From a virus, in the IMG/VR virus record IMGVR_UViG_3300020027_000273, positions 1 through 30,660 of that record: a DNA stretch of 30,660 nucleotides; one strand, written 5' to 3'. Below the pieces are notes generated by a model. The model was not told where the DNA came from, did no database searches, and saw nothing but the letters and a program-made list of their open reading frames with translations. Both the position numbers and the translations under genes were made by a program. The first letter of the stretch is position 1, and the number at the start of each line of letters is the position of its first letter. This document shows positions 2,468 through 30,660 of the stretch, piece by piece.

Positions 2468-3334
2468 ATGGAAAAACTGTTTAAATTCTTTGAAAGCAAA
2501 GCCGGATTTTTAACGGCAATAGGCCTGATTCTTGGCATATTCATTTTTGGTGGTGCTATCATGTACTTCGGCTTTTATAGATCATGCCCAAGTGATGCCG
2601 GAACTTTTGGTGATATGTTTGGCGTAATCACGTCGCTTTTCAGCGCACTCACTGTGATTCTTGTGTTCTATGCTGCTCGATTACAAAAGAAGGAATTGAA
2701 TGATACGCGAGATGAGATGAAAACTCAAACCGGTATTTCATTAGCCTTAAGTCAAGCATCCAAAAAACAAAGTGAAGCAGCAATCGAGCAAAGTAAAGCC
2801 TCTATCAAACAGAATAAGAATCTAGTTCTGCAACGATTTGAAAATACCTTCTTCAACTTGATCACAATTCATAATCAGAATGTGGAGAATCTAAAACATG
2901 CAATTGGAAGTCCTCTTTTTCCTTCTCTATATACAAACATGCAAAGAAAGTTCCAGATGGAATTTACTGGAATTCCGAACTTCTTTACCGAGGACTATGG
3001 AGATTTCATACGATGGTACAACACAGAGCCTCAAGGTGGAGAGAATCTTACTCTACATTATTTCAAACACATTACGAATATCTTGACATTTATAAAGGAT
3101 GCCACTCTAAGTGAAAAAAGAAGAAGTTTCTATTTGAATACATTTCTGGCCTTGCTTTCATCCCACGAGTTGACGCTTTTATACTTTCATGTTGCATTTT
3201 ACAATAAACTCAACGATCGGAGCAAAGAAGTCAGTGAACTCAGGCTCTTCTGTTTGAGGTATAAAGTTTTCGATGACGTGGAGAATCTACCTAACGACAC
3301 GTACAAGAATATTGTCAAAGCATGGAGCAATTGA
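2468..3334 (+). CDS. Putative phage abortive-infection protein (putAbiC-like)
   Basis: A 288-residue membrane protein. Two predicted transmembrane segments lie at about residues 14-37 and 48-69, separated by a short CPSDAGTFGDMFG stretch. A polar, coiled-coil-like segment rich in Q, K and S follows (about 70-120), then a soluble helical domain with HYFKHITNILTFI. This architecture matches, from memory, the putative AbiC family of membrane-anchored phage-exclusion proteins. Its place between the integrase and the end of the late operon is a usual site for cargo genes that protect a lysogen. It ends 2 bp from the convergent tail-fibre stop, with no terminator between. Family membership is fairly likely; the mechanism is unknown. 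Confidence 0.65.
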   Translation: MEKLFKFFESKAGFLTAIGLILGIFIFGGAIMYFGFYRSCPSDAGTFGDMFGVITSLFSALTVILVFYAARLQKKELNDTRDEMKTQTGISLALSQASKKQSEAAIEQSKASIKQNKNLVLQRFENTFFNLITIHNQNVENLKHAIGSPLFPSLYTNMQRKFQMEFTGIPNFFTEDYGDFIRWYNTEPQGGENLTLHYFKHITNILTFIKDATLSEKRRSFYLNTFLALLSSHELTLLYFHVAFYNKLNDRSKEVSELRLFCLRYKVFDDVENLPNDTYKNIVKAWSN

Positions 3335-17311: not shown

Positions 17312-19333
17312 TTACAGCAATCCATCAATTTCCTTCTTGTCTTCCTTGGAAAGTATCTTGAGATATGGGTGGTTCTTTGAAAACAGTTCCCCTGTCTTTC
17401 CCGGATTAAATCTAAAGTCGGGAGCAGCGATCTTCTTATATTCACTTCGCTCCTTCGCTGTTAACTTTGCTGGCTTTGCGTTCGGGACGGCAACTAGACG
17501 ACACCTACAATTCCAATCGAACGGAGGCACAAGAGAATTAAACAATGAATCATTCTTTTTAAGGATAAGTCCTTCCAACTTAGCATGTGATGGTCTTACT
17601 CTAGCATCCCCTACAGTTGAAAACATTAGCATGTCATCATTGTCATAGGATAGCCAATCACTTGCGGATTGCGCCTGACTGATTGCGGACTGGTATTCTG
17701 TTTTGAGATGGTTCTTGTTGAACTCCAACCCAATCTTTTTGCACTCCTGCTTGAACTGGCTGAACGATCTAAGATTCTTACCTTCGAAAAGCAGATCGTT
17801 GAACGACTGTACCAGTGCCTTATTCTTGCCACCAGTGAAATAGTAAATGTTTTGCTTCAACGCTGCAATAAAGTCAAGGTCTTCTGAATCAAAATTTGGA
17901 TTTGACAAATCTCCATCGAAGTTGAAAGAATCGAAGACTGCCTTTGACATGAGGTCGCCAACTCGTCGAATGTATTCCGGGTCTAATGGATTTACGTTAT
18001 TAGAGTAAACATCGCTTATGATCTGGTCAACGATGCTTTCCAACTCTCGGTTATACAAATCATCAACCTCGGACTCTACCGAATTGATAATGTCATGGGA
18101 GCAATTATCGTGGTGCTTATAGTATTCTTTTAGTTCGGCTAGTAGTTGTCCCGATTGGTTTGGACTTTTTTTTTGAAAGCCGTTGTCAGGAACGGACTGT
18201 TGTGTTGGCATCAACTCCACATCGAACGGTAAATCAAGATATTGCTTGATATCTTCACCTTCTGCTTGGTAGCCCGATAGTGTCAACTGATTTATTGTAT
18301 CCAACCTTTCTTGGTACGATCTCTTTTCCTTCGATATGAACTTGAAATGTGAGTTCTCAAGTCTGTAACCTAGAGCAATAAGTTTAGGGAATACAATATC
18401 GTTAATAATATAGGTCATGTATTCACGATCTGAATCAGATACTTCATCAGCAACGCGTTCATGAACCTCAGATTGTGACCTAGATGAACCATCATCCGTT
18501 GTCATGGTAACCGACAAAACCGCCTTCGACATTTCAGAATTACACAGGTTGATAAGTTCCGAGTATATTTTATGCGCATCGGTTGATGACGTGGCAATGA
18601 TCTCCAATTCATCGCTAAGGCCGGTCACAATATTGCGATTGGTAATCAGCCTTTGCATGTCTGCCTGATACTTGGCAGTCTGGTCGCGGTTATCTGTTTT
18701 CAAAACCGTCATCGGAATTCCAAATGTTTGCGCGTGGTCTCCCCACATGGCAATCGTAATACGTTTGATCAATGCATGCACCACCACGCTATTAAGGATT
18801 CCAAGATTCTGGGAGTCAACAAGGATATAATAATCAGAGTCATTGCGGCCATCGATAGGAATTAGTTGACCTAGATTAACCTGATATGGATTTTTAACGA
18901 TTGAGCGAAGTTCTGGAATTACGTTACCTCTTGAAATTAGTTTAACGTCCTTGATCTCACTATCGATCAATTCTTGAATCTCAACAAGGGAATAGCCGTA
19001 AAACTTTGAGTCTATGATTGCTTCCTGCAATTTATTGAACCATTGTTTTGAGAATAGTTTTGTTAGTTCGTCATCAATGTTGCCTCTATCATCCATTACA
19101 GCGAATTCCTCGCCAAGAACCTTTGACTTTCTCTGTTGGATCACACTGGATAAATGCGGATCAAGAAGTATTGAATCGTAAATATCTTGAAGAGGTTTTT
19201 TTATTGGAACCTGTATCTGTCCGTTGATCCTTTGAAGTTCCGCTCTTATGTGAGCACTGACCCAAGCCTGAATTGTTTTTCTTGAACGGTCGTAATATAT
19301 ATCTAGTTTGTCCGATAGTTTGTCTTCTGCCAT
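17312..19333 (-). CDS. Portal protein (DUF935/Mu gp29-like) fused to a MuF head morphogenesis domain
   Basis: A 673-residue protein. The N-terminal 400 residues resemble Mu-type portals (DUF935): DPHLSSVIQQRKSKVLGEEF, YGYSLVEIQ, then VVHALIKRITIAMWGDHAQT FGIPM and LSVTMTTDDGSSRSQSEVHE. The last 150 residues form a MuF domain of the SPP1 gp7 / Mu F type, with STVGDARVRPSHAKLEGLIL and the conserved PPFDWNCRCRLVAVP. Portal forms the DNA channel; MuF proteins bind the portal inside the head. In Mu these are separate genes. The start has GTATTTAA 4 nt upstream. Confidence 0.85.
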   Translation of the reverse strand: MAEDKLSDKLDIYYDRSRKTIQAWVSAHIRAELQRINGQIQVPIKKPLQDIYDSILLDPHLSSVIQQRKSKVLGEEFAVMDDRGNIDDELTKLFSKQWFNKLQEAIIDSKFYGYSLVEIQELIDSEIKDVKLISRGNVIPELRSIVKNPYQVNLGQLIPIDGRNDSDYYILVDSQNLGILNSVVVHALIKRITIAMWGDHAQTFGIPMTVLKTDNRDQTAKYQADMQRLITNRNIVTGLSDELEIIATSSTDAHKIYSELINLCNSEMSKAVLSVTMTTDDGSSRSQSEVHERVADEVSDSDREYMTYIINDIVFPKLIALGYRLENSHFKFISKEKRSYQERLDTINQLTLSGYQAEGEDIKQYLDLPFDVELMPTQQSVPDNGFQKKSPNQSGQLLAELKEYYKHHDNCSHDIINSVESEVDDLYNRELESIVDQIISDVYSNNVNPLDPEYIRRVGDLMSKAVFDSFNFDGDLSNPNFDSEDLDFIAALKQNIYYFTGGKNKALVQSFNDLLFEGKNLRSFSQFKQECKKIGLEFNKNHLKTEYQSAISQAQSASDWLSYDNDDMLMFSTVGDARVRPSHAKLEGLILKKNDSLFNSLVPPFDWNCRCRLVAVPNAKPAKLTAKERSEYKKIAAPDFRFNPGKTGELFSKNHPYLKILSKEDKKEIDGLL

Positions 19334-19337
19334 GTAG

Positions 19338-19345
19338 TTAAATAC
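19338..19345 (-). promoter_or_regulatory. Candidate late element GTATTTAA before the portal gene
   Basis: Four nucleotides upstream of the ATG at 19333, in the 33-bp gap after the connector gene. Confidence 0.45.
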
Positions 19346-19366
19346 TTGGCAGGATTCGATTCACCG

Positions 19367-19924
19367 TTAGTAATAAAGACCTATTCCACTATCGGGTTTG
19401 CCAGTGATATAGATGTTATATGTTCGGTCTTCGAGTTCTGGAAAGTCTGGACTTAACTTCTCGCATTGAATATTTTTTAGGAACATCATCACTTCTTGGT
19501 AAGAATTGGTGCGATGAACCGGAATGTTTTCCGGGCTGATACGTTCGTGAAGTTTATACAGTGAAATAGTTACCAACCAATCAACTATCAACGGGTATCT
19601 TGGTTCAACCATCATCCAATCAAATGAACCGGGCAGGGATGTCGTGGCCGACACTGGTGAATAGAGTAAGGCGCTGAAATTATCACCAGACGTAAACCAT
19701 ACCGTGTCACCGCTAAAGTATGTTTGGCCGTGCTGGTAAGTAGGGTATGATTTGTAAAGCGCATTCAGGTCATACCTCTTTCTCAAGTATAGGGAAATGA
19801 CTTCTTGAGCCTTTATCTCGCTGTCTAGGATCGACAGGTCTGGGTTCGAGTCTTCCTCAACCAAGGTGGTTAAATCGTCCTCACTAATTTTATACTTATA
19901 ATCAGAATCTCGAAGGTATCGCAT
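19367..19924 (-). CDS. Head-tail connector, Gp36-like (DUF1320 type)
   Basis: From ATG at 19924, 185 residues. The frame is open up to 20041, but the start at 19924 begins MRYLRDSDYKYKISEDDLTT L, the usual N-terminus of Mu Gp36-like connectors, and GTATTTAT lies 4 nt before it. Helical N-terminal part with DSEIKAQEVISLYLRKRYDL, a beta insertion (YFSGDTVWFTSGDNFSALLY), and C-terminal IVDWLVTISLYKLHERISPE plus YQEVMMFLKNI. The family pairs with DUF935 portals. It is the first gene of the minus-strand structural block. Confidence 0.7.
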   Translation of the reverse strand: MRYLRDSDYKYKISEDDLTTLVEEDSNPDLSILDSEIKAQEVISLYLRKRYDLNALYKSYPTYQHGQTYFSGDTVWFTSGDNFSALLYSPVSATTSLPGSFDWMMVEPRYPLIVDWLVTISLYKLHERISPENIPVHRTNSYQEVMMFLKNIQCEKLSPDFPELEDRTYNIYITGKPDSGIGLYY

Positions 19925-19928
19925 GGAG

Positions 19929-19936
19929 ATAAATAC
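19929..19936 (-). promoter_or_regulatory. Candidate late element GTATTTAT before the connector gene
   Basis: Four nucleotides upstream of the ATG at 19924. It decides this start over longer in-frame options, and it is the first late element of the block. Confidence 0.45.
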
Positions 19937-20077
19937 CCAGACATATTTGAGAATTCGACGGTTTTTGTTTATTTCGAACAACTGAATTTCACTCCCCACC
20001 CGGTCGCAATAGACCCCCAGCCCATCCATAGGTGAGTTCAACGTTTTTACTGAACTATACTAACCCCCTATATACCT

Positions 20078-20371
20078 ATGACCGCTACGGAACTAAAGGA
20101 CTTATTGATCTCTCGAAAGTGGGAATACAAGCCCGTTGTGTATTCATTCAACGCAACCACTATGTCGACCAGCAGTGGAGTAATGACACCTTACGAAATT
20201 GAAGAAAAGGATGACCTGTTACTTCTCACAAACACCGATCTCAGAAACAAACAACCTTTTAGGTTGACGGTAAAAGAAAATCACGGACTCACAGAGATCA
20301 CAATTGCTCCCGTAATCATTGGTGACACTGGTTTCTCGCCAATTATCCTAACTGAGATTATCCCTAACTGA
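20078..20371 (+). CDS. Small unknown protein, first gene of the cargo operon
   Basis: A 97-residue protein, 4 bp upstream of the nuclease gene. Predicted beta-rich in the second half (PFRLTVKENHGLTEITIAPV IIGDTGFSP) with a helical start (ATELKDLLISRKWE). No family recognised. Tight spacing suggests co-expression with the nuclease and HEPN genes; it could be a regulatory or protective partner. It could instead be an old phage gene at the edge of the head module. Confidence 0.6.
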   Translation: MTATELKDLLISRKWEYKPVVYSFNATTMSTSSGVMTPYEIEEKDDLLLLTNTDLRNKQPFRLTVKENHGLTEITIAPVIIGDTGFSPIILTEIIPN

Positions 20372-20375
20372 CAGA

Positions 20376-21383
20376 ATGGAAAACGTCTACTACTTTCAAC
20401 GCTATTCTCAGAAGGAGAATTGGGCGACAAACAATACCATGCTTTTGCTTTCCAGACTGTACCACTATGACAGATGGAAGTTTTCGGAAGTGATCAATAA
20501 AATATTGGAAGACGATGGAGCGGAGCCATTGGATATTGGAATAAACTTTTTCCAACAGGCTAAGGGACTTAAGAGCGTGCCCGACGCTTTAATTTCTCAA
20601 AGCAGTTTCGAATTACTGGTCGAAACAAAACGGCAGGATGATTTCACTTCTGACCAACTTATCCGACACCTAGACGCGTTCAAGATTACGTCATCAAGCA
20701 AAGTAATGTTAGCACTATCGCTCAATCCTTGCGACACTAAAATAAGAAAGGAAGTTGATGATCATATAAGGAAGGAGAAACTAAGCATCACGTTTGTCTC
20801 CACATCGTTTGAGAGACTTACTGATATTATTCGCGCAATTCTTGAGAGTCACGAAATTGAGTTACTGGAGATACTGGAAGATTATTTAGGATTTTGCAAT
20901 GACTCAGGGCTCATTCAGAATAAAGACCACACCATGCTTGTGGTAACTTCTGGTAAATCGATTACAGAAAACCTCAAGTATAACATATATTATGATCCTG
21001 ACACACGAGTGCACAAATTGCCTTTCAAATACATTGGCCTATACGATAAGAAGAATGTTGTAGCCGTTGGAAGGGTAACTAAACTTATTTACTGTGAATA
21101 TAAGAAAGGGAAACTCGTTCCTTCGATTTCCTCCGCGCCATTAAAATTAACACGCGACGAAGAGTCACGCGTAAAGGCAACAATAGAAGAAACAAGTTAC
21201 TACAATCTCAAAAATGATACTAAGTTCTTTCTCGTAGACAAATTCATCCCTACTAAATTTGAAAAAACGTCATGGTCGTCAATGCGAAGCAAACAATACT
21301 TCTTTCTAAACAAAATGGAAGGATACAGCAAATCGTTTGAAACTAAGCAGATTGCCGAATTCCTCAAACAACATACGTGGTAA
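20376..21383 (+). CDS. PD-(D/E)XK-type nuclease
   Basis: A 335-residue protein. The catalytic motif is clear: P69-D70, then 12 residues, then E83-T-K85 (SVPDALISQSSF followed by ELLVETKRQD), the PD-x12-ExK pattern of the restriction-endonuclease-like fold. An N-terminal helix with E38 and a later QLIRHLDAF fit the same core. The 180 residues after the nuclease domain form a second beta-rich domain with repeated strand pairs (KNVVAVGRVTKLIYCEYKKG), of unknown function and perhaps recognition or sensing. Spacing to neighbours is 4 and 18 bp. A role in DNA cleavage for phage defence is inferred from context. Confidence 0.7.
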   Translation: MENVYYFQRYSQKENWATNNTMLLLSRLYHYDRWKFSEVINKILEDDGAEPLDIGINFFQQAKGLKSVPDALISQSSFELLVETKRQDDFTSDQLIRHLDAFKITSSSKVMLALSLNPCDTKIRKEVDDHIRKEKLSITFVSTSFERLTDIIRAILESHEIELLEILEDYLGFCNDSGLIQNKDHTMLVVTSGKSITENLKYNIYYDPDTRVHKLPFKYIGLYDKKNVVAVGRVTKLIYCEYKKGKLVPSISSAPLKLTRDEESRVKATIEETSYYNLKNDTKFFLVDKFIPTKFEKTSWSSMRSKQYFFLNKMEGYSKSFETKQIAEFLKQHTW

Positions 21384-21401
21384 ACGCAAAACTAAAAGAA
21401 A

Positions 21402-22214
21402 ATGACGACTTGGAACCAATGTCAGCATCATTACGATTCTATCTTCGAAACGTTTCAAGACTATCTTGAAACGCAAATTGCAAATGTTAACGCAAATACA
21501 ATTGCACTCGGTGTACAACTGGCGATTCTACAGAAGTTTCAGATTAATATGATTTGTGCACGAGACTTTATACCGTATGTGTCAGAGGATCAAAAGAAAT
21601 TTCTTTCACTTGGACTTGTGCTAAGAGGCATTATTTCTGATGTAATTAATTACCGGTATTTGAATAAAGTTAGAACGAGCGTTGGGCTTGACGAATTTGA
21701 GATTGAATCAAAAGTGCTAGATCGAGACTTTGTCGAGGCGTATGGAAAGATGATTGGACAAGAAGCCATCCTTGCCAGTGCAGATCAGGAAACTAAGACG
21801 GCGATTGCAGCATCTTTTCAAAATCAGTTTGGGGCTCTTCACGTCGATAATAAACTTATGACTGGAACGCAGATTCGAAATTCTGAAACGTTTAAGGCAA
21901 ATATGTCTGCATACTTACAAACCATTAACAAACCTGATCTACACTACGCTAGGGAGGCGGGCAAACTGCAATTCGTTGTTGATGATGACTCTAGTATAAT
22001 TGAGATACTTTATAAGTACTTATCACAACTTCAACATTTTTCCCTGATTGGAAGAAAAATGTACACTATGGATGGCTTCTTGGATTTCAACCCACACATT
22101 ACTCTTTTGACCCTATTTTTGATGGCTAAGGTTATTAGGCAAATTGCACTTGATGTTGCGCCACATCAACCGACCTTGACTGCTTTGGACACATTTATCA
22201 ATGCATTTGTATAA
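21402..22214 (+). CDS. Helical protein, possibly HEPN-like (DUF5677-type)
   Basis: A 270-residue, nearly all-helical protein. LSLGLVLRGIISDVINYRYL and LYKYLSQLQHFS recall the conserved helices of DUF5677-type HEPN relatives, including a serine/histidine pair where those proteins have YRxLSxxxH, but a clear R-x4-6-H motif is missing. It lies 18 bp after the nuclease gene and overlaps or abuts the next. An inactive HEPN-like partner of the following HEPN protein is one possibility. I do not recognise it with certainty. Confidence 0.6.
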   Translation: MTTWNQCQHHYDSIFETFQDYLETQIANVNANTIALGVQLAILQKFQINMICARDFIPYVSEDQKKFLSLGLVLRGIISDVINYRYLNKVRTSVGLDEFEIESKVLDRDFVEAYGKMIGQEAILASADQETKTAIAASFQNQFGALHVDNKLMTGTQIRNSETFKANMSAYLQTINKPDLHYAREAGKLQFVVDDDSSIIEILYKYLSQLQHFSLIGRKMYTMDGFLDFNPHITLLTLFLMAKVIRQIALDVAPHQPTLTALDTFINAFV

Positions 22215-22218
22215 TGAC

Positions 22219-23565
22219 ATGGCAATAACCCTGAATGAGCACAAAGTAAAGCACATAGACCAAGAGTCATTGCTATTGATCGACCTTTTGGAAACGTCAA
22301 CGCTAATGCCGGACGATCCGGTTGCAGATGATCCTAAAAAGGAGAAACTGATTGATCCGCCTCCTATTTTGACTTTTACCATGCCAGACAATTACATTCT
22401 TACTAAAGGCAATCTTCCATTCGATTGTTTTAAGAGAACATGCATTGGATTCAATGAGGAGAATTACATTAGATTTAAAAAATTGGTTGATACGATACAT
22501 AAAGGGCATGAAGTAGGCACAAAAATCAGCCATGAATTTGTTCACAAGACAGTCTGGGGTTGGTTGATTCAAGCAAAACGGAAAGGTCAGAGTGATGGCA
22601 GTTTATCGGACTACCTTCATGAACAACTAAACGGAGCGATTAAAGAGTACAAGATGCACTTTACAATCCTGTATCTACATCCAAAGTATAAGTTCAATAT
22701 TGGCCTTGCTGAATTTGGTTCATTCTCAGGGGAATACTTTGATAAGTTTATTGACACCTTCAACAAGAATAAGCCGGGTCTGCCAAATGTGTTCGTGCGA
22801 ATGAAGAAAGAATATTTCGGCCAAAAATATGTGGCGGTCACCGTCGAGGGTGAGAAAATCCGGGCTCAACAAATTGCCGCAGACTATTGTGCAATCGCAG
22901 TTGATATTCTGAAAATATGCAGCGACACACTCGACCAACCAGATTTAAAAATTAGTTTTGATATTGATTTCAGGTCTCAGGAAAGCCCACAAGACAAGAC
23001 ACTTGTTGAAGCAATTAATTCGGAAGACGGGCTTACTACACAATTACGGCGAAAGCCAGCAAATTACGATCTTGAAGAACGACGAATGGCTGCAATTGAG
23101 AAAAGAGGGCTTAACACTTTTCGCGACTTTCTAATTTCGATTGAACAGGAGAAGCCAAGTGAATTACAGAATCTCATTCTTCGAGCCATTCGCAGGTTTG
23201 CCGATGCATTGACAAACACTGATCTTCATAGGCGCGTCGCATCGCTGTTCACGATACTTGAATCGTTGCTTTTGTTAGATCAGGATTCTCCGATTACTGA
23301 TAGCGTTGTCAAGTATACCACCAGACTGGTATCTAAGGACATTGAGACAAGAAAAATACTGTCAGTCTTGATCAAGGAATTATACAAGGTTCGAAGCAAA
23401 TGGGTTCACCACGCAATCGAGGAACCAATTCATGAAAAGGATTTAGCAGGACTTCAAATAGTTGTGCATACGCTCTTGAAGGTCTTGATAGGAAAAACGA
23501 AACAGCATAAAGAGAAGGCGACGATTTTAAAAGAGATCGACGATGCAATTTTAAGTGCTGGATGA
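22219..23565 (+). CDS. HEPN-domain RNase-like protein (ApeA-like)
   Basis: A 448-residue protein from ATG at 22219; an ATG at 22201 overlapping the previous gene by 14 bp is also possible. The C-terminal 140 residues look like an Apea-type HEPN domain, with RVASLFTILESLLLLDQDS and then LIKELYKVRSKWVHH. In the last, R-S-K-W-V-H gives the R-x4-H RNase motif (R392 and H397). The first 300 residues are mixed and not recognised; they may sense the trigger. HEPN RNases of this type cut tRNA or mRNA in abortive infection; here the defence role is inferred. It ends 13 bp from the convergent DUF2971-like gene. Confidence 0.65.
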   Translation: MAITLNEHKVKHIDQESLLLIDLLETSTLMPDDPVADDPKKEKLIDPPPILTFTMPDNYILTKGNLPFDCFKRTCIGFNEENYIRFKKLVDTIHKGHEVGTKISHEFVHKTVWGWLIQAKRKGQSDGSLSDYLHEQLNGAIKEYKMHFTILYLHPKYKFNIGLAEFGSFSGEYFDKFIDTFNKNKPGLPNVFVRMKKEYFGQKYVAVTVEGEKIRAQQIAADYCAIAVDILKICSDTLDQPDLKISFDIDFRSQESPQDKTLVEAINSEDGLTTQLRRKPANYDLEERRMAAIEKRGLNTFRDFLISIEQEKPSELQNLILRAIRRFADALTNTDLHRRVASLFTILESLLLLDQDSPITDSVVKYTTRLVSKDIETRKILSVLIKELYKVRSKWVHHAIEEPIHEKDLAGLQIVVHTLLKVLIGKTKQHKEKATILKEIDDAILSAG

Positions 23566-23578
23566 TGTGACCACCTTT

Positions 23579-24583
23579 TCACTTTTCAGTTTGACAATGA
23601 AAAAAGTTCTCGCTCACGTTGATCTGATACCCCAGAGTGAATAAGGCCATATCTTTGATCTGTTGTTTTACCTTTTCAAAGTCATCATTTGTCAATCCAC
23701 ATTTATCCCAGACTCGCACATCCACTATCTTTATTTGAGGATTACGCTTGAAGTATTCTTCCGGCAGTTGTTGCTTTATGGAAAGGTGTTCGTAGCCAAT
23801 AGGATCATAGACTCTATCATTGTCAACCCACAAGGGCAGTTCAATGTAAGTTGTTAATCTGTTACGCTTGTGGACTTTGTCAAATCTGTAATCGTGTTTT
23901 ACGTATTTGGTGTATTCGCTTTGATTACCGTAAGGCGCATATCGAAGCAGCCTTACTTCTCGTTCATCTCTGAAATGATCCATTTTATAGAAGCCTATTA
24001 GCCTGCTTGCATCCAAGTAAGCAGTTATGCCATATTTTTTCTTGAATGCGTCTAATTCAGACTGATAGTTCTCAAGGCCAGTGGGCAGTTTGTACTTGAT
24101 TTCTCCAAGATTATAATTGATCCATTGATCTGGCTCATTCACGATTTCAAATACGATTGCCGCTCCACCTTGGCCATAGTTTTGCCAGATATATGGATTA
24201 TCCATTTCCGTAGTTGGGCAAAACGATAGCGTGTAGAGTCTGGACTTCAAGTTCTGAATTGCCTCTTCGTTTATTCCCATTGCTTTGGCGGCATAACCAT
24301 ACTCCTGTTCGTCTGCCGAACTATGAAGGTCATACATTCGAAAAGCCCGGCTGGTTAGTATTGAGAACAGAAACCCCAGACCGGTCAGGTGGAAGAACTG
24401 CAAAGGCTTTGCATAGTAGTATTCCGTGTGACGGTAGTTAAAATTGTAAGAGGCAAGGTCGAGACGATAGTGTTCGCCGTTGACGTTTCCACCACCTTCG
24501 AATTTTACAATGCCGAAAGCCCGGTTGATTATTTCCTTGAACTCATCATAAATTTCTTTGTCTTCATAAGTTGTGCGCGGCAT
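23579..24583 (-). CDS. DUF2971-like protein (defence-island type)
   Basis: A 334-residue protein with the pattern of DUF2971: an early LGFLFSILTSRAFRMYDLHS SADEQE segment, LYTLSFCPTTEMDNPYIWQN YGQGGAAIVFEI, then FYKMDHFRDEREVRLLRYAP. Members are common in defence islands, with unknown activity; some are suggested to be ADP-ribosyltransferase-like, which I cannot judge here. The gene starts 20 bp after the serine recombinase stops and probably shares its transcript. It converges on the HEPN operon. Confidence 0.55.
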   Translation of the reverse strand: MPRTTYEDKEIYDEFKEIINRAFGIVKFEGGGNVNGEHYRLDLASYNFNYRHTEYYYAKPLQFFHLTGLGFLFSILTSRAFRMYDLHSSADEQEYGYAAKAMGINEEAIQNLKSRLYTLSFCPTTEMDNPYIWQNYGQGGAAIVFEIVNEPDQWINYNLGEIKYKLPTGLENYQSELDAFKKKYGITAYLDASRLIGFYKMDHFRDEREVRLLRYAPYGNQSEYTKYVKHDYRFDKVHKRNRLTTYIELPLWVDNDRVYDPIGYEHLSIKQQLPEEYFKRNPQIKIVDVRVWDKCGLTNDDFEKVKQQIKDMALFTLGYQINVSENFFHCQTEK

Positions 24584-24603: not shown

Positions 24604-25257
24604 CTATGAACGGTTTAAAATCCTTGAAACACTGATTGCCTCGAACTTACTGCCCTTGCTGGTCTTGTATTGGAGTTCGTTAAGCCTTTCAGCGATGGCC
24701 CGGTAACTCATCTTATCTTTCCTCAATAATTGTATCATGGCAAGGGCTTGAATATTGTTCTTGTTGGTTCTGGCTGCGTCCATTCTGGACTTGACGCCTG
24801 CCTTCCTTCCCTTGCTGGTCATGTTATCAGGACTGCCCAAAGGTTCTCCACGTCTACGCTTGGCCGCTAAGGCATCCTTGATTCGTTTACTGATGATCTC
24901 CCGTTCATGTTGTGCCATGCTTGCAAATATCCCTATGGTCAGGGTGTTTGCGTCTGGCAGGTCAAGGGCTTTGAAGTCCACCTTAGTATCTCGGAGAGTG
25001 AAGATAAAGGAAACATTCCGGGACAGTCTGTCCAGTTTGGCAATAAGCAGAGTCGCACCAACCTTCTTGGCGTGTTCTATTGCTTTCAATAGGTTCGGTC
25101 TGGAATCATTCTTCCCGGATTCGATGTCCTTGTATTCCGCAATCAAAGAGCGTCTCTTATCGCCTGAAATGAAGTCCTGAACGGTCTTTTGTTGGGCTTC
25201 TAGGCCAAGACCTGACTTGCCCTGTCTTTTGGTGGATACCCTGTAATATGCGATCAT
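24604..25257 (-). CDS. Small serine recombinase (resolvase/invertase family)
   Basis: From ATG at 25257 (217 residues; a GTG at 25266 would add three). Catalytic domain: MIAYYRVSTKRQGKSGLGLE with nucleophile S8, then LLIAKLDRLSRNVSFI with the conserved LDRLSR, and FASMAQHEREIISKRIKDAL. The C-terminus ends in a helix-turn-helix (MSYRAIAERLNELQYKTSKG), normal for resolvases of 180-220 residues. It lacks the long zinc-ribbon part of large serine integrases. A tandem-repeat array lies just upstream, a plausible binding or res site. It may mobilise the cargo, invert a segment, or be an accessory phage gene. Confidence 0.85.
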   Translation of the reverse strand: MIAYYRVSTKRQGKSGLGLEAQQKTVQDFISGDKRRSLIAEYKDIESGKNDSRPNLLKAIEHAKKVGATLLIAKLDRLSRNVSFIFTLRDTKVDFKALDLPDANTLTIGIFASMAQHEREIISKRIKDALAAKRRRGEPLGSPDNMTSKGRKAGVKSRMDAARTNKNNIQALAMIQLLRKDKMSYRAIAERLNELQYKTSKGSKFEAISVSRILNRS

Positions 25258-25273
25258 CTTTGCCACGTTTAAA

Positions 25274-25371
25274 GTTACTATTCCTAACTAAGATTGAAAA
25301 CTACCCTTAACTAAGAATGACGGGGAACAATTTCTAACTAAGATTACCCGTTACTATTCCTAACTAAGAAT
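25274..25371. repeat. Four-copy TAACTAAGA repeat array upstream of the serine recombinase
   Basis: The 12-mers at 25284-25295 (CTAACTAAGATT), 25307-25318 (TTAACTAAGAAT), 25334-25345 (CTAACTAAGATT) and 25360-25371 (CTAACTAAGAAT) all point the same way, with spacing 23, 27 and 26 bp. The outer two extend into a perfect 20-bp repeat, GTTACTATTCCTAACTAAGA, at 25274-25293 and 25350-25369. The array fills the gap between a terminator and the recombinase start. It fits recombinase subsites or repressor operators. Confidence 0.8.
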
Positions 25372-25372
25372 G

Positions 25373-25392
25373 AAAAAGGGGCTCGTGGCCCC
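25373..25392 (-). terminator. Rho-independent terminator of the LPD29-like gene
   Basis: Read on the minus strand, GGGGC and GCCCC form a stem with a CACGA loop, followed by five T. It lies 5 bp after the LPD29-like stop and before the repeat array. Confidence 0.85.
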
Positions 25393-26012: not shown

Positions 26013-26459
26013 ATGGCAAAACAATTAAACGAGAAGCAACTAGAGATACTTCGAAAACATCAGTTCAAGAAGGGCGAGGTGCAGCAGCCACAAGGCAGGA
26101 CATCACCCAATAAGATTAACCAGCATATAAGGGAAGTACTCTCCCATGCAGTACAGGACAATCTACCAGCAGTCAACAAGGCAATAGGATCATTACTAAA
26201 GTCTGAGAATGATCTAGTAAAGTCCAGAGGCGTTGATCTGTACTTGAGTTTACTTGAATTCTCCCAACCAAAACTTCAGGCGGTCGCTTTAAAAACTGAT
26301 GGGGCAAGCAACAGCATAATTGTCATCGGCAAACCTGCTGATCTTGAACTTCCAAGTTATGAGCCAAACGACCAGCAGGCAGACGATGGTTATTTACAGG
26401 AAGCCTCTTTAGTTGATCCCAACATAAATAACCCTAGTGATGATAGCCAAGAATATTAA
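26013..26459 (+). CDS. Putative terminase small subunit
   Basis: From ATG at 26013, 148 residues (an ATG at 25989 gives 156). The basic N-terminus (MAKQLNEKQLEILRKHQFKK) and helical core with INQHIREVLSHAVQDNLPAV fit a DNA-binding oligomeric small subunit, but no family signature is clear. The TAATG overlap with the next gene indicates coupling to the large terminase, which is the main reason for the call. Acidic, disordered C-terminus. Confidence 0.6.
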   Translation: MAKQLNEKQLEILRKHQFKKGEVQQPQGRTSPNKINQHIREVLSHAVQDNLPAVNKAIGSLLKSENDLVKSRGVDLYLSLLEFSQPKLQAVALKTDGASNSIIVIGKPADLELPSYEPNDQQADDGYLQEASLVDPNINNPSDDSQEY

Positions 26460-27838
26460 TGCAGGTCGACCTATCGAATTTACCCAAGATCGTTTCAAAA
26501 CACTTCTATCCTTTACTACCCAATAAAAAGAAGTACCTAATCTGCTATGGAGGTATTTCGAGCGGCAAGTCTGTCTTCATTGCGCAAAAACTTATCTACA
26601 GAATTCTTACCGATGGCGTTGAGCATAGAATTCTGGTTGTCCGAAAAGTATCGGAGAAACTTAGGCAATCGGTATTCACCGAATGTCTTCAGGTTCTAAG
26701 AGACATGGGCCTCTCCCCTTATGCAAATGTCACTACGTCACCATTGCAAATCAACCTATTCGGTAGCACGATTTTGTTTTCAGGAATTGATGAAAGCGAA
26801 AAGATAAAATCAATATCCCGTATAAGTGCTGTTTGGATCGAAGAGGCAACGGAACTGTTGGAATCTGACTTTGATGAGTTAGCAGACAGATTAAGAACAG
26901 ACTATCCTACCTACAAACAAATCATTCTTTCATTCAACCCGATCAGCAAAAGCCATTGGCTTTACAAACGGTTTTTTGAAAATGATGATCTGAAGAATGA
27001 TACTTCAATTCACAAATCCACTTATCTGGACAATGATTTCATCAATACCGAAGAGTTTGGTAACAGCATTAGAGCCAGATACAAGAACAATGCAAATGCT
27101 TATCAGGTTAAGGTTTTGGGAAACTTCGGTTCAGATCAGACCGGAGGTGAATTTTACGCTTCGTTCAATGCTGGCACCACTGTTACAAATGTTTCGTATG
27201 ACCCTGAATACCCGTTGATCCTATCATGGGATTTTAACGTCTTGCCGTTCAGTGCTTGCCTTATTGGTCAGTTGACCGGTAAGACATTAAACATCATTAA
27301 TGAAATCGCTCTCGAATCTCCATTCAACAGGCCGATAAACGTAATGCAAGAACTAAAGAGAAGATACCCTCACCATTATTCCGGCATATACGTTACAGGG
27401 GATGCTTCCGGAAAAGCGAATAGCACTAGGACTCAAGATAACGTAAACGATTACACCGTAATCTTTGAACAATTGAAAACCTATGTAGGTGTAAAGGATT
27501 TTGTTCCTTCGAAGAACGCCAATGTCTTTCAACGTGGAGAGTTTATCAACGCTCTGTTTGCTGGTGATGTTGAAGGCGTTCAAATACATATTGATCCTTC
27601 ATGCACAAAATTAATTGAAGACCTTTCAAATATTAAGCGATCAGAAGACGGATCAAAATGGAAACGTAGAATCAAGAGCAAAACAACAGGGCAAACTTTT
27701 GAAGAGTACGGCCACATGTCAGACGCGTTAGACATCATGGTAACTCAATTCATGAAGGAAGACTTCAAAAAGTATCTTAGAGGTTCCAATGCGGATTTGC
27801 ACGTAGGTAGCCGTTACGTGCCATTAAATCTCTATTGA
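26459..27838 (+). CDS. Terminase large subunit (PBSX / Terminase_3 type)
   Basis: A 459-residue DNA-packaging motor. ATPase: Walker A GGISSGKS (31-38) and Walker B AVWIEEA (124-130), with the coupling motif LSFNPI near 158-162. Nuclease: aspartates at D258 (ILSWDFN), D315 (YVTGDASG) and about D422-425 (MSDALDIM), the RNase H-like triad. Length is normal (420-480). PBSX-type terminases usually package by headful or cos mechanisms; which applies here is not visible. It is encoded on the opposite strand to the portal and separated from it by the 6-kb cargo island. Confidence 0.9.
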   Translation: MQVDLSNLPKIVSKHFYPLLPNKKKYLICYGGISSGKSVFIAQKLIYRILTDGVEHRILVVRKVSEKLRQSVFTECLQVLRDMGLSPYANVTTSPLQINLFGSTILFSGIDESEKIKSISRISAVWIEEATELLESDFDELADRLRTDYPTYKQIILSFNPISKSHWLYKRFFENDDLKNDTSIHKSTYLDNDFINTEEFGNSIRARYKNNANAYQVKVLGNFGSDQTGGEFYASFNAGTTVTNVSYDPEYPLILSWDFNVLPFSACLIGQLTGKTLNIINEIALESPFNRPINVMQELKRRYPHHYSGIYVTGDASGKANSTRTQDNVNDYTVIFEQLKTYVGVKDFVPSKNANVFQRGEFINALFAGDVEGVQIHIDPSCTKLIEDLSNIKRSEDGSKWKRRIKSKTTGQTFEEYGHMSDALDIMVTQFMKEDFKKYLRGSNADLHVGSRYVPLNLY

Positions 27839-28295: not shown

Positions 28296-28326
28296 GAGAT
28301 TCGTGGGCTTAATAAACCCTCGGACA

Positions 28327-29886
28327 ATGAATGCACACTTAATCAAATTCCTGATGTATTACGAGATTCACCGCCTGAGACGGGAAGACCATTCGGTAAG
28401 GAAAATCACAGAACTACTAGGTATTAATCGCAGAACTGTAGGCAAATATCTCTCGATGACCGAGAAGGAGTACGAAGCCTTCCTGATCAAGCAGTCTGAT
28501 AGGAAGAAAGAACTTCAATCCTACGAGCCCTTTGTCAAAGAGAAACTGGAGCTTTTTCCTGATACTTCCGCAGCTCAGATGCACGATTGGCTGAAAGAGC
28601 ACCATTCTGACTTCCCTGAACTGAACGCTAAGACGATCTTCAACTTTGTTCACTGGGTACGAAACAAATACAATATTCCCAAGTTACAGGAACAACGTCA
28701 GCACAGCGTAGTAGAGGAACTGCCCTACGGGAAACAAGCGCAGGTAGACTTCGGAGAATATAGCCTGAGAAGTTCATCGGGTGTGAGAGTCAAAGTGTTC
28801 TTCTTCACATTTGTATTAGCACGTTCACGTTACAAATACATCTGGTTCACTGACCATTATTTTACCAGTGAACTGGCCATCCAGGCACATGAACAGGCCT
28901 TTGCTTATATCCAGGGAGTTCCTGATGAGATTGTCTATGATCAGGACAAGGTATTTATCGTAAGCGAAAACTGTGGCGACATCATTCTCACCGATGTGTT
29001 CCGGAGGTATACACGGACGCAATCCTTTCAGCTCTACTTCTGTCGTAAATCTGATCCTCAGAGTAAAGGTAAGGTCGAAAACCTGGTAAAGTATATCAAG
29101 CAAAACTTTCTCTACAACCGTACCTATTACAACATTGAAACACTCAATGACGATGTCATGGGATGGCTCGGTCGTACAGCTAACGCACTGCCACATGGCT
29201 TTACCCGGAAGGAACCACATGCGGAATGGATCAATGAACGCGTCTTTTTAAAACCATATGTGGTACAGCCAGTCGTGATCAAGGCTGTCGCCTATACTGT
29301 ACGAAAGGATAATACGATCTCCTGGAAAAGCAATCTTTACTCTGTTCCATTGGGAACCTACAGCGGAAGAGGTGCTCAGGTTACCGTACGAAGTCAACAA
29401 GAAGATCTGGTGATCTCCCATGCAGAGGGTCATGAATTATGTCGCCATAAGATTGCCGTCGGGAAGGGCCTTAAAATCATCAATACAGACCATAAACGAG
29501 ATAAATCAACGGGCATTGACGAAATGATCCACCAACTATGCGCATTGCTGGAGGACCCGGGATCTGGAAGAGCCTGGCTCTCAGCACTGCGAAATGCAAA
29601 GCCGCGATATGTCCGGGACCAGCTTTCTGCCATTCGGACAGTAATTGAAAAAAGTCCCGCACCATTGATTGAAAAGACGATCAAATATTGTCTGGACAAC
29701 AATATTACCAGCGCGATGGATTTTAAAGCAATCATCGTCCAGCAACAACAACGGTCAGTGGTTCAGGAAAAGATCATTCCATTAAACCCTCTATCGGGTA
29801 CCCGACCCCAAATCAATGAGCCGCAGAAAAGCTCGATTCAGGACTATCAGGATCTTATTAAAAAATCAACCAATCGTCAGAACTAA
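28327..29886 (+). CDS. istA: IS21-family transposase IstA
   Basis: From ATG at 28327, 519 residues (a GTG at 28303 is less likely). N-terminal helix-turn-helix with SVRKITELLGINRRTVGKYL (23-42). DDE integrase core: D141 (QAQVDFGEY), D205 (IVYDQDKV) and E251 (SKGKVENLVKYIK). The C-terminal domain contains KSNLYSVPLGTYSGRGAQVT V, typical of IstA. It catalyses strand transfer. It is followed 24 bp later by istB. Confidence 0.95.
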   Translation: MNAHLIKFLMYYEIHRLRREDHSVRKITELLGINRRTVGKYLSMTEKEYEAFLIKQSDRKKELQSYEPFVKEKLELFPDTSAAQMHDWLKEHHSDFPELNAKTIFNFVHWVRNKYNIPKLQEQRQHSVVEELPYGKQAQVDFGEYSLRSSSGVRVKVFFFTFVLARSRYKYIWFTDHYFTSELAIQAHEQAFAYIQGVPDEIVYDQDKVFIVSENCGDIILTDVFRRYTRTQSFQLYFCRKSDPQSKGKVENLVKYIKQNFLYNRTYYNIETLNDDVMGWLGRTANALPHGFTRKEPHAEWINERVFLKPYVVQPVVIKAVAYTVRKDNTISWKSNLYSVPLGTYSGRGAQVTVRSQQEDLVISHAEGHELCRHKIAVGKGLKIINTDHKRDKSTGIDEMIHQLCALLEDPGSGRAWLSALRNAKPRYVRDQLSAIRTVIEKSPAPLIEKTIKYCLDNNITSAMDFKAIIVQQQQRSVVQEKIIPLNPLSGTRPQINEPQKSSIQDYQDLIKKSTNRQN

Positions 29887-29910
29887 CCAACATGTAAAAC
29901 CAAAGAGAAG

Positions 29911-30660
29911 ATGGACCAAAAACAACAAGTCAAACAGTACTGCCAGCAGTTCAAGATTACCGGTATCAGCCGGCAGATCGAGGAGCTTATTGCAGCAGCA
30001 GAAGAGAAGAGCACGGGCTTTATGGATTTTACCGTCGCCATGTTTAAAGCCGAAGCCGATCACCGGCATGACAACGAACTCCAGCGACGCATTAAAACGG
30101 CTTCACTGCCAATTGCTAGTGATCTAAATACATACGATCATCAAGTAGAGAACGGCTTACCCAAGACACGACTCAATCAGTTACGTGAGCTCAACTGGCT
30201 GGATCAGATTTACAACATCATGCTCATGGGACCATCTGGAACCGGCAAAACCTTTTTGGCTGCCGGGCTCTGCGCGGATGCACTGGCAAAGGGCTATAAA
30301 GCCTACTTCAGAACCATGGAAGAACTCATGACCATGCTCAAGTTAAAAGACGTTACTAAGACGCACATGACCGAATACAAGCGGCTAAGTAAAGCAAATC
30401 TGATCGTCATTGATGACATTATGCTCTTCCCGGTAGAGAAGTTCCAGGCCGTAAGCTTTTTCAATTTTATCAATCAAATCTATGAGAGTACCTCCTTTGT
30501 CATCACCACCAATAAAATGCCAGCAGACTGGGCAAAAGTACTAGATGACGAGGTACTGGCCACTGCGCTTCTAGATCGCCTACTATACCGTTGTGAGATA
30601 ATTAACCTAACCGGAAAGAGCTACCGGCTGAGCAACCGAAAAACAATATTTGAATCCTGA
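29911..30660 (+). CDS. istB: IS21-family helper ATPase IstB
   Basis: A 249-residue AAA+ ATPase related to DnaC. Walker A GPSGTGKT (107-114) and Walker B LIVIDDI (164-170). Sensor region FVITTNKMPADWAKVL and DRLLYRCEII are typical. IstB binds target DNA and activates IstA. The stop codon is the last three bases of the window, so the ORF is complete but the right IS end is not shown. Confidence 0.95.
   Translation: MDQKQQVKQYCQQFKITGISRQIEELIAAAEEKSTGFMDFTVAMFKAEADHRHDNELQRRIKTASLPIASDLNTYDHQVENGLPKTRLNQLRELNWLDQIYNIMLMGPSGTGKTFLAAGLCADALAKGYKAYFRTMEELMTMLKLKDVTKTHMTEYKRLSKANLIVIDDIMLFPVEKFQAVSFFNFINQIYESTSFVITTNKMPADWAKVLDDEVLATALLDRLLYRCEIINLTGKSYRLSNRKTIFES

Follow-up and report, generated by a model that had tools for sequence, protein, structure and literature searches.

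A phage cargo block encoding a predicted modification-dependent PD-(D/E)XK-PUA nuclease and an ApeA-like HEPN protein

Modification-dependent enzymes with a domain of the PUA superfamily, such as VcaM4I (EVE-HNH), PvuRts1I, MspJI and the predicted EVE-PD(D/E)XK enzymes (Bell et al. 2020; PMC7641849), are small stand-alone nucleases with a sparse, mobile distribution in defence islands. In PvuRts1I, an N-terminal PD-(D/E)XK domain is combined with a C-terminal SRA domain (review PMC12707154). YjbR-EVE fusions have also been described by Bell et al., and EVE lies at either end of the protein in some fusion classes, according to a figure legend in that paper. ApeA (PF18739; Ec4ApeA, PDB 9hxm) consists of an N-terminal part and a C-terminal HEPN domain (PMC3710099), and Tha, an anti-phage HEPN system encoded by a prophage of Staphylococcus (PMC11087260), provides a precedent for HEPN-based defence by prophages. 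PD-(D/E)XK and HEPN nucleases also occur as auxiliary effectors of BREX (PMC12839542). We compared these systems with a block of four genes, A to D (20078–23565, + strand), of a Mu-like phage of Bacteroidota. The window analysed comprises 30,660 nucleotides (positions 1 to 30,660 of IMG/VR record IMGVR_UViG_3300020027_000273). The block appears to assemble weapons of known kinds rather than to form one new machine, and its most interesting part is gene B, a member of an unnamed, widespread family of predicted modification-dependent nucleases.

Gene B (20376–21383, + strand) encodes a protein of 335 amino acids that itself matched no family in Pfam (E-values up to 10), PADLOC (E-values up to 1), PHROGs or NCBIfam; Shedu (SduA) was rejected as an assignment because no Shedu model matched within the same Pfam and PADLOC limits. 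A scan of viral contigs with this single protein recovered nothing. The first full-length relative was found on Macrococcus plasmids (29% identity), and the resulting two-sequence alignment retrieved 56 loci from bacterial genomes of many phyla. Enlargement of the alignment added 11 viral contigs, many of them with an adjoining large serine recombinase gene, and the family finally comprised 69 loci from many phyla. The original prediction, made from this DNA alone, had identified a PD-(D/E)XK nuclease with a PD-x12-ExK motif, and the alignment bears this out: the motif reads P69-D70-x12-E83-T-K85 (codons D70 to K85 at 20583–20630, + strand), and D70, Q75, E83, K85 and Q94 are invariant in all 55 aligned homologues (median pairwise identity 38%), so that the nuclease catalytic motif expected of a modification-dependent PUA-nuclease enzyme is intact. 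The family is further characterised by the N-terminal sequence HYFQRY(S/H)xKEN, and one relative matched PDDEXK_4, below threshold.

The original prediction had missed a probable second domain at the C-terminus of protein B. The AlphaFold2 (AF2) model is confident, with a mean predicted local distance difference test score (pLDDT) of 90.5 and a predicted template modelling score of 0.83. On the basis of conservation, this model and its fold matches, protein B is predicted to consist of a PD-(D/E)XK domain (residues 1 to about 180) followed by a probable PUA-superfamily (YTH/ASCH/EVE-like) domain (about 181–334), a domain arrangement known from type IV, modification-dependent restriction enzymes. 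Residues Y223, K226 and K297 of the PUA part are invariant, and many of its aromatic residues are conserved. Foldseek ranked MspJI first and placed VcaM4I and AspBHI among the top six matches, all at E-values above 0.001; these three proteins are all modification-dependent enzymes. With VIA-align, residues 181–334 were superimposed on YTH, ASCH and EVE domains (Z 6.6–7.1; root mean square deviation 3.7–4.4 over 104–120 residues) and residues 6–164 on the cleavage domains of FokI and BspD6I (Z about 6); for Z below 8 the tool warns that a match may reflect a common arrangement, and each of these matches is weak by itself. The case for a restriction enzyme is nevertheless coherent, because two separate domains both match restriction-enzyme parts. 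In addition, a full-length phage protein with a fold like that of B carries the name PD-(D/E)XK. LAGLIDADG-type PDB matches (E 0.04–0.1) were set aside, because the aligned stretch lies outside the motif.

We consider that protein B most likely represents an unnamed clade of modification-dependent restriction enzymes, and the modelled PUA fold suggests that neither C nor D may be needed for it to recognise modified DNA. Like the known enzymes, it is predicted to be a small stand-alone nuclease with a PUA-superfamily domain, it has a sparse, mobile distribution in defence islands, and it shares with PvuRts1I the order of nuclease first and reader last. It differs in having no sequence match to the Pfam and PADLOC models of those enzymes, and its PUA domain may belong to the YTH, ASCH, EVE or SRA subfamily. 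PvuRts1I and AbaSI were not among the fold matches listed for B; this absence is evidence neither for nor against kinship.

The genomic settings of the B family differ from locus to locus. Neighbouring genes encode restriction and methylation subunits of type I systems, PtuA (Septu), AriA, MADS and type IIG proteins, with an HsdR-like protein within 6 kb of B in 10 of the 69 loci and a same-strand gene no more than 60 bp upstream of B in 29. No methyltransferase recurs as a partner, and only a minority of loci adjoin type I restriction-modification operons, which have their own HsdM; the family thus behaves as expected of enzymes without an obligatory cognate methyltransferase. In some loci B is preceded by a YjbR/MmcQ gene at a distance of 17 bp, and in L059 (7242–8678) YjbR/MmcQ and B occupy one open reading frame, which suggests a YjbR-PD(D/E)XK-PUA fusion. 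A BREX locus (L060, 1569–9023) has the order PglZ, BrxL, YjbR/MmcQ and B homologue, with a gene for a D-like HEPN protein just upstream of PglZ. This locus shows the recruitment of both kinds of nuclease to one island, in agreement with the accessory effectors reported for BREX (PMC12839542); by contrast, no BREX core gene adjoins genes A to D in the window.

Two further arrangements recur around B. In viral contigs with large serine recombinases (L076, L078–L081 and L084), a partner of about 323–342 amino acids is encoded a few bases upstream of B, which lies at about position 8001 in L076, L078, L080, L081 and L084 and at about 975 in L079. The partner contains SFATKYCSHHNPLDYPIYDSYV, and lies in a longer open frame in L081; a single copy was compared with Pfam and had no match. 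L082 and L083 contain only the C-terminal part of the partner. On the Macrococcus plasmids (L002, 5992–7694; L003, 6070–7019), a gene for a conserved protein of 197 amino acids without an assigned function lies 47 bp downstream of the B homologue. In L003 the B homologue is shortened, and the copy of the 197-residue protein gene lies near mecB.

Gene D (22201–23565, + strand) encodes a protein of 454 amino acids that is ApeA-like and probably an RNA-cutting enzyme, as judged from its invariant residues and weak family matches. Scans of viral contigs, phages and plasmids with the single protein returned nothing. For D, as for gene C below, absence was judged on samples of genomes: 395 Bacteroidota genomes yielded one near full-length relative (23% identity) and one C-terminal relative, and a D profile matched 3–4 genomes per 241–390 searched, plus one viral contig. 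Apart from the start, the only positions invariant in all 10 distant relatives are Y395, R398 and H403, with E354, L356 and S399 nearly invariant. The R-x4-H motif R398-S-K-W-V-H403 (23392–23409, + strand) conforms to the R-x4-6-H pattern of HEPN proteins, and the conserved residues fit the HEPN ribonuclease site described in PMC3710099. The R-x4-H HEPN protein of the original prediction is therefore upheld; the R392 and H397 named there are the same residues counted from an ATG at 22219, and become R398 and H403 when counted from the start at 22201.

The N-terminal part of D, of about 300 residues, fits the layout of ApeA, with which D also shares the C-terminal R-x4-H HEPN domain and an LExL stretch upstream of it. 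The family profile matched Ec4ApeA along two collinear stretches, including its LYLLRNTIVH motif, at an E-value of 0.21, and two relatives matched HEPN_Apea (PF18739) below threshold over the same stretch (E 0.0085 and 0.027). Matches of the profile to catenin and stilbene synthase were judged to be due to chance. However, D itself matches neither HEPN_Apea nor any other Pfam or PADLOC model and is shorter than Ec4ApeA (454 versus 619 amino acids). We therefore describe it as ApeA-like without assigning it to ApeA itself. Tha, an HEPN ribonuclease borne by a prophage and protecting the lysogen, resembles D in the role predicted for the latter; it has an antisense inhibitor gene, whereas the gene beside D is the co-directional, overlapping gene C.

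Genes A and C are orphans. Gene A (20078–20371, + strand; 97 amino acids) is the first of the block and has no family and no relative in the phages, viral contigs or fetched loci. Gene C (21402–22214, + strand; 270 amino acids) likewise has no family and no relative in phages, plasmids, viral contigs or fetched loci, and none was found in the 15 B-bearing genomes and 395 Bacteroidota genomes searched, a weak negative given that the search had no positive control. The product of C is probably helical; its single-sequence AF2 model was helical only, with a pLDDT of 38, and was discarded as uninformative, and weak matches to XylA and protein A were judged to be due to chance. The description of C in the original prediction as HEPN-like, with a possibly inactive domain, was thus not confirmed, though C may be an inactive HEPN protein.

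The four genes are open reading frames packed as originally described, with gaps of 4 bp (A-B) and 18 bp (B-C) followed by a 14-bp overlap of C and D. They are likely to form a single transcription unit, because the genes bordering the block on both sides lie on the opposite (–) strand and no terminator-like site was found on the + strand within the block. Sigma-70-like promoter matches were fewer than in shuffled sequences and were not used. The set does not recur as a unit: sensitive searches of all fetched loci revealed neither A nor C near B outside the window (0/69 loci), a D-like HEPN protein was encoded near B at a single locus of the 69 (the BREX locus L060, about 5 kb upstream of B), and neither B nor C was found near the relatives of D, the nearest of which stand alone. 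For these reasons, genes A to D are best read, on the pattern of co-occurrence, as stacked independent cargo, with C and D as a possible pair.

We accordingly favour, with a probability of roughly 60%, a cassette of defence cargo (a moron) in which a temperate or transposable Bacteroidota phage combines two nuclease weapons, independent of each other, within a single transcription unit. Protein B would act as a stand-alone type IV-like modification-dependent enzyme, its C-terminal PUA fold reading a modified base in incoming phage DNA and its N-terminal PD-(D/E)XK domain cutting nearby. The N-terminal part of D would sense infection and its C-terminal HEPN domain would cut RNA, shutting down the cell. 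If D has a partner or restraint, gene C, which overlaps it, would be the best candidate, and gene A is left without an explanation in this scheme. The conserved catalytic triad, the confident two-domain fold prediction and the relatives in defence islands speak for the part assigned to B, and the conserved R-x4-H motif for that of D. Several observations weigh against the independent-cassette interpretation: the Z-scores of the PUA domain are all below 8, Pfam and PADLOC recognise neither B nor D themselves, no Pfam PUA model matches B, and functional coupling would be compatible as well with the 14-bp overlap of C and D and the 4 bp between A and B.

The alternatives differ in how they group the genes or in the target of B. 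Genes C and D may be a pair of the abortive-infection or toxin-antitoxin type, in which C restrains or senses for the HEPN ribonuclease D; B would then be a separate restriction gene, and A would belong to neither. The 14-bp overlap is typical of coupled pairs and a cognate partner is common among HEPN toxins (PMC3710099), but no C-like gene accompanies the relatives of D, not even at L064 and L085, where the relative is nearly full-length, and we consider this pairing somewhat unlikely. It is less likely still that the PUA domain of B binds RNA or unmodified nucleic acid, in which case B would not be a modification-dependent DNA enzyme and might serve phage competition or replication. The top fold matches, YTH and ASCH, are often RNA binders (PMC7641849); however, the nuclease domain resembles those of DNA restriction enzymes, the chromosomal relatives adjoin DNA restriction and BREX genes, and the family is associated with YjbR, a putative DNA binder. 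A bolder proposal, that B founds an unnamed, widespread PD-(D/E)XK-PUA clade reading a base modification outside the range of known enzymes and acts jointly with C and D in a DNA-then-RNA defence, the HEPN protein killing the cell if restriction fails, finds a hint in the BREX locus with both genes and is improbable. Finally, the single new sensing-effector system put forward in the original prediction, in which a DNA nuclease, a ribonuclease HEPN and an inactive HEPN partner would work together with A, is likewise improbable: it accounts for the tight co-directional packing, the 14-bp overlap and the meeting of B with a D-like HEPN protein in the BREX locus, but A and C are missing from all of the B loci elsewhere and B and C from the surroundings of the D relatives, so that the recurrence of gene order, chosen beforehand as the check that could refute it, was largely not observed, B would have a sensor of its own in its predicted PUA domain, and C was not shown to be an HEPN protein.

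In the favoured interpretation, with the two nucleases as independent cargo, the block provides a case of a phage stacking predicted DNA- and RNA-directed weapons in a single cargo block. Although Pfam, NCBIfam, PHROGs and PADLOC all miss it, the B family occurs in many phyla, both in prophages and beside genes of type I restriction-modification, Septu and BREX systems. If B does read a modified base, the family would offer new modification-dependent enzymes for the mapping of DNA modifications and would directly counter phages with disguised DNA.

The phage itself was identified from genes on the – strand for a portal protein with a Mu-F domain, a Gp36 adaptor, a Clp-type protease, and sheath and tail proteins, and from a Terminase_3 gene on the + strand. 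The best relatives of the portal protein are encoded by phages of Winogradskyella, Flavobacterium, Bacteroides and Porphyromonas (25–31% identity). In the four related phages examined, terminase, adaptor and portal genes are adjacent or nearly so, whereas here an interval of about 5.9 kb separates the adaptor from the terminase, confirming the proposed cargo position between the portal and terminase modules. The adaptor and portal genes (17312–20041, – strand) precede the block and the terminase gene lies at 26459–27838 (+ strand); the interval contains A to D, a DUF2971-like gene, a serine recombinase gene and an LPD29-like gene. The block is not distinct in GC content, and a DNA-level search of it against phages and plasmids gave no match.

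The DUF2971-like gene (23579–24583, – strand; 334 amino acids; Pfam DUF2971, E 0.073; PHROG 1762, E 4e-8), the product of which had no match in the phage collection, shares the inserted stretch with A to D and is probably not a member of their operon. The serine recombinase gene (24604–25266, – strand; Pfam Resolvase, E 6e-25; PHROG invertase), at the end of the insertion that faces the terminase, is a candidate mobiliser of the cargo. Between it and the LPD29-like gene, four imperfect direct repeats of about 19–27 bp (ACTATTCCTAACTAAGATTGA) at 25274–25376 are possible recombinase or regulator sites. At the right end of the window, just past the terminase gene, lies an IS21-like istA/istB pair (28303–30660, + strand); the record may represent part of a prophage that an insertion sequence has interrupted. 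The opposite end of the phage has a second cargo gene that is defence-like, an open reading frame of 288 amino acids (2468–3334, + strand) that matches the Pfam family putAbiC (putative phage abortive infection protein) with an E-value of 1.6e-10.

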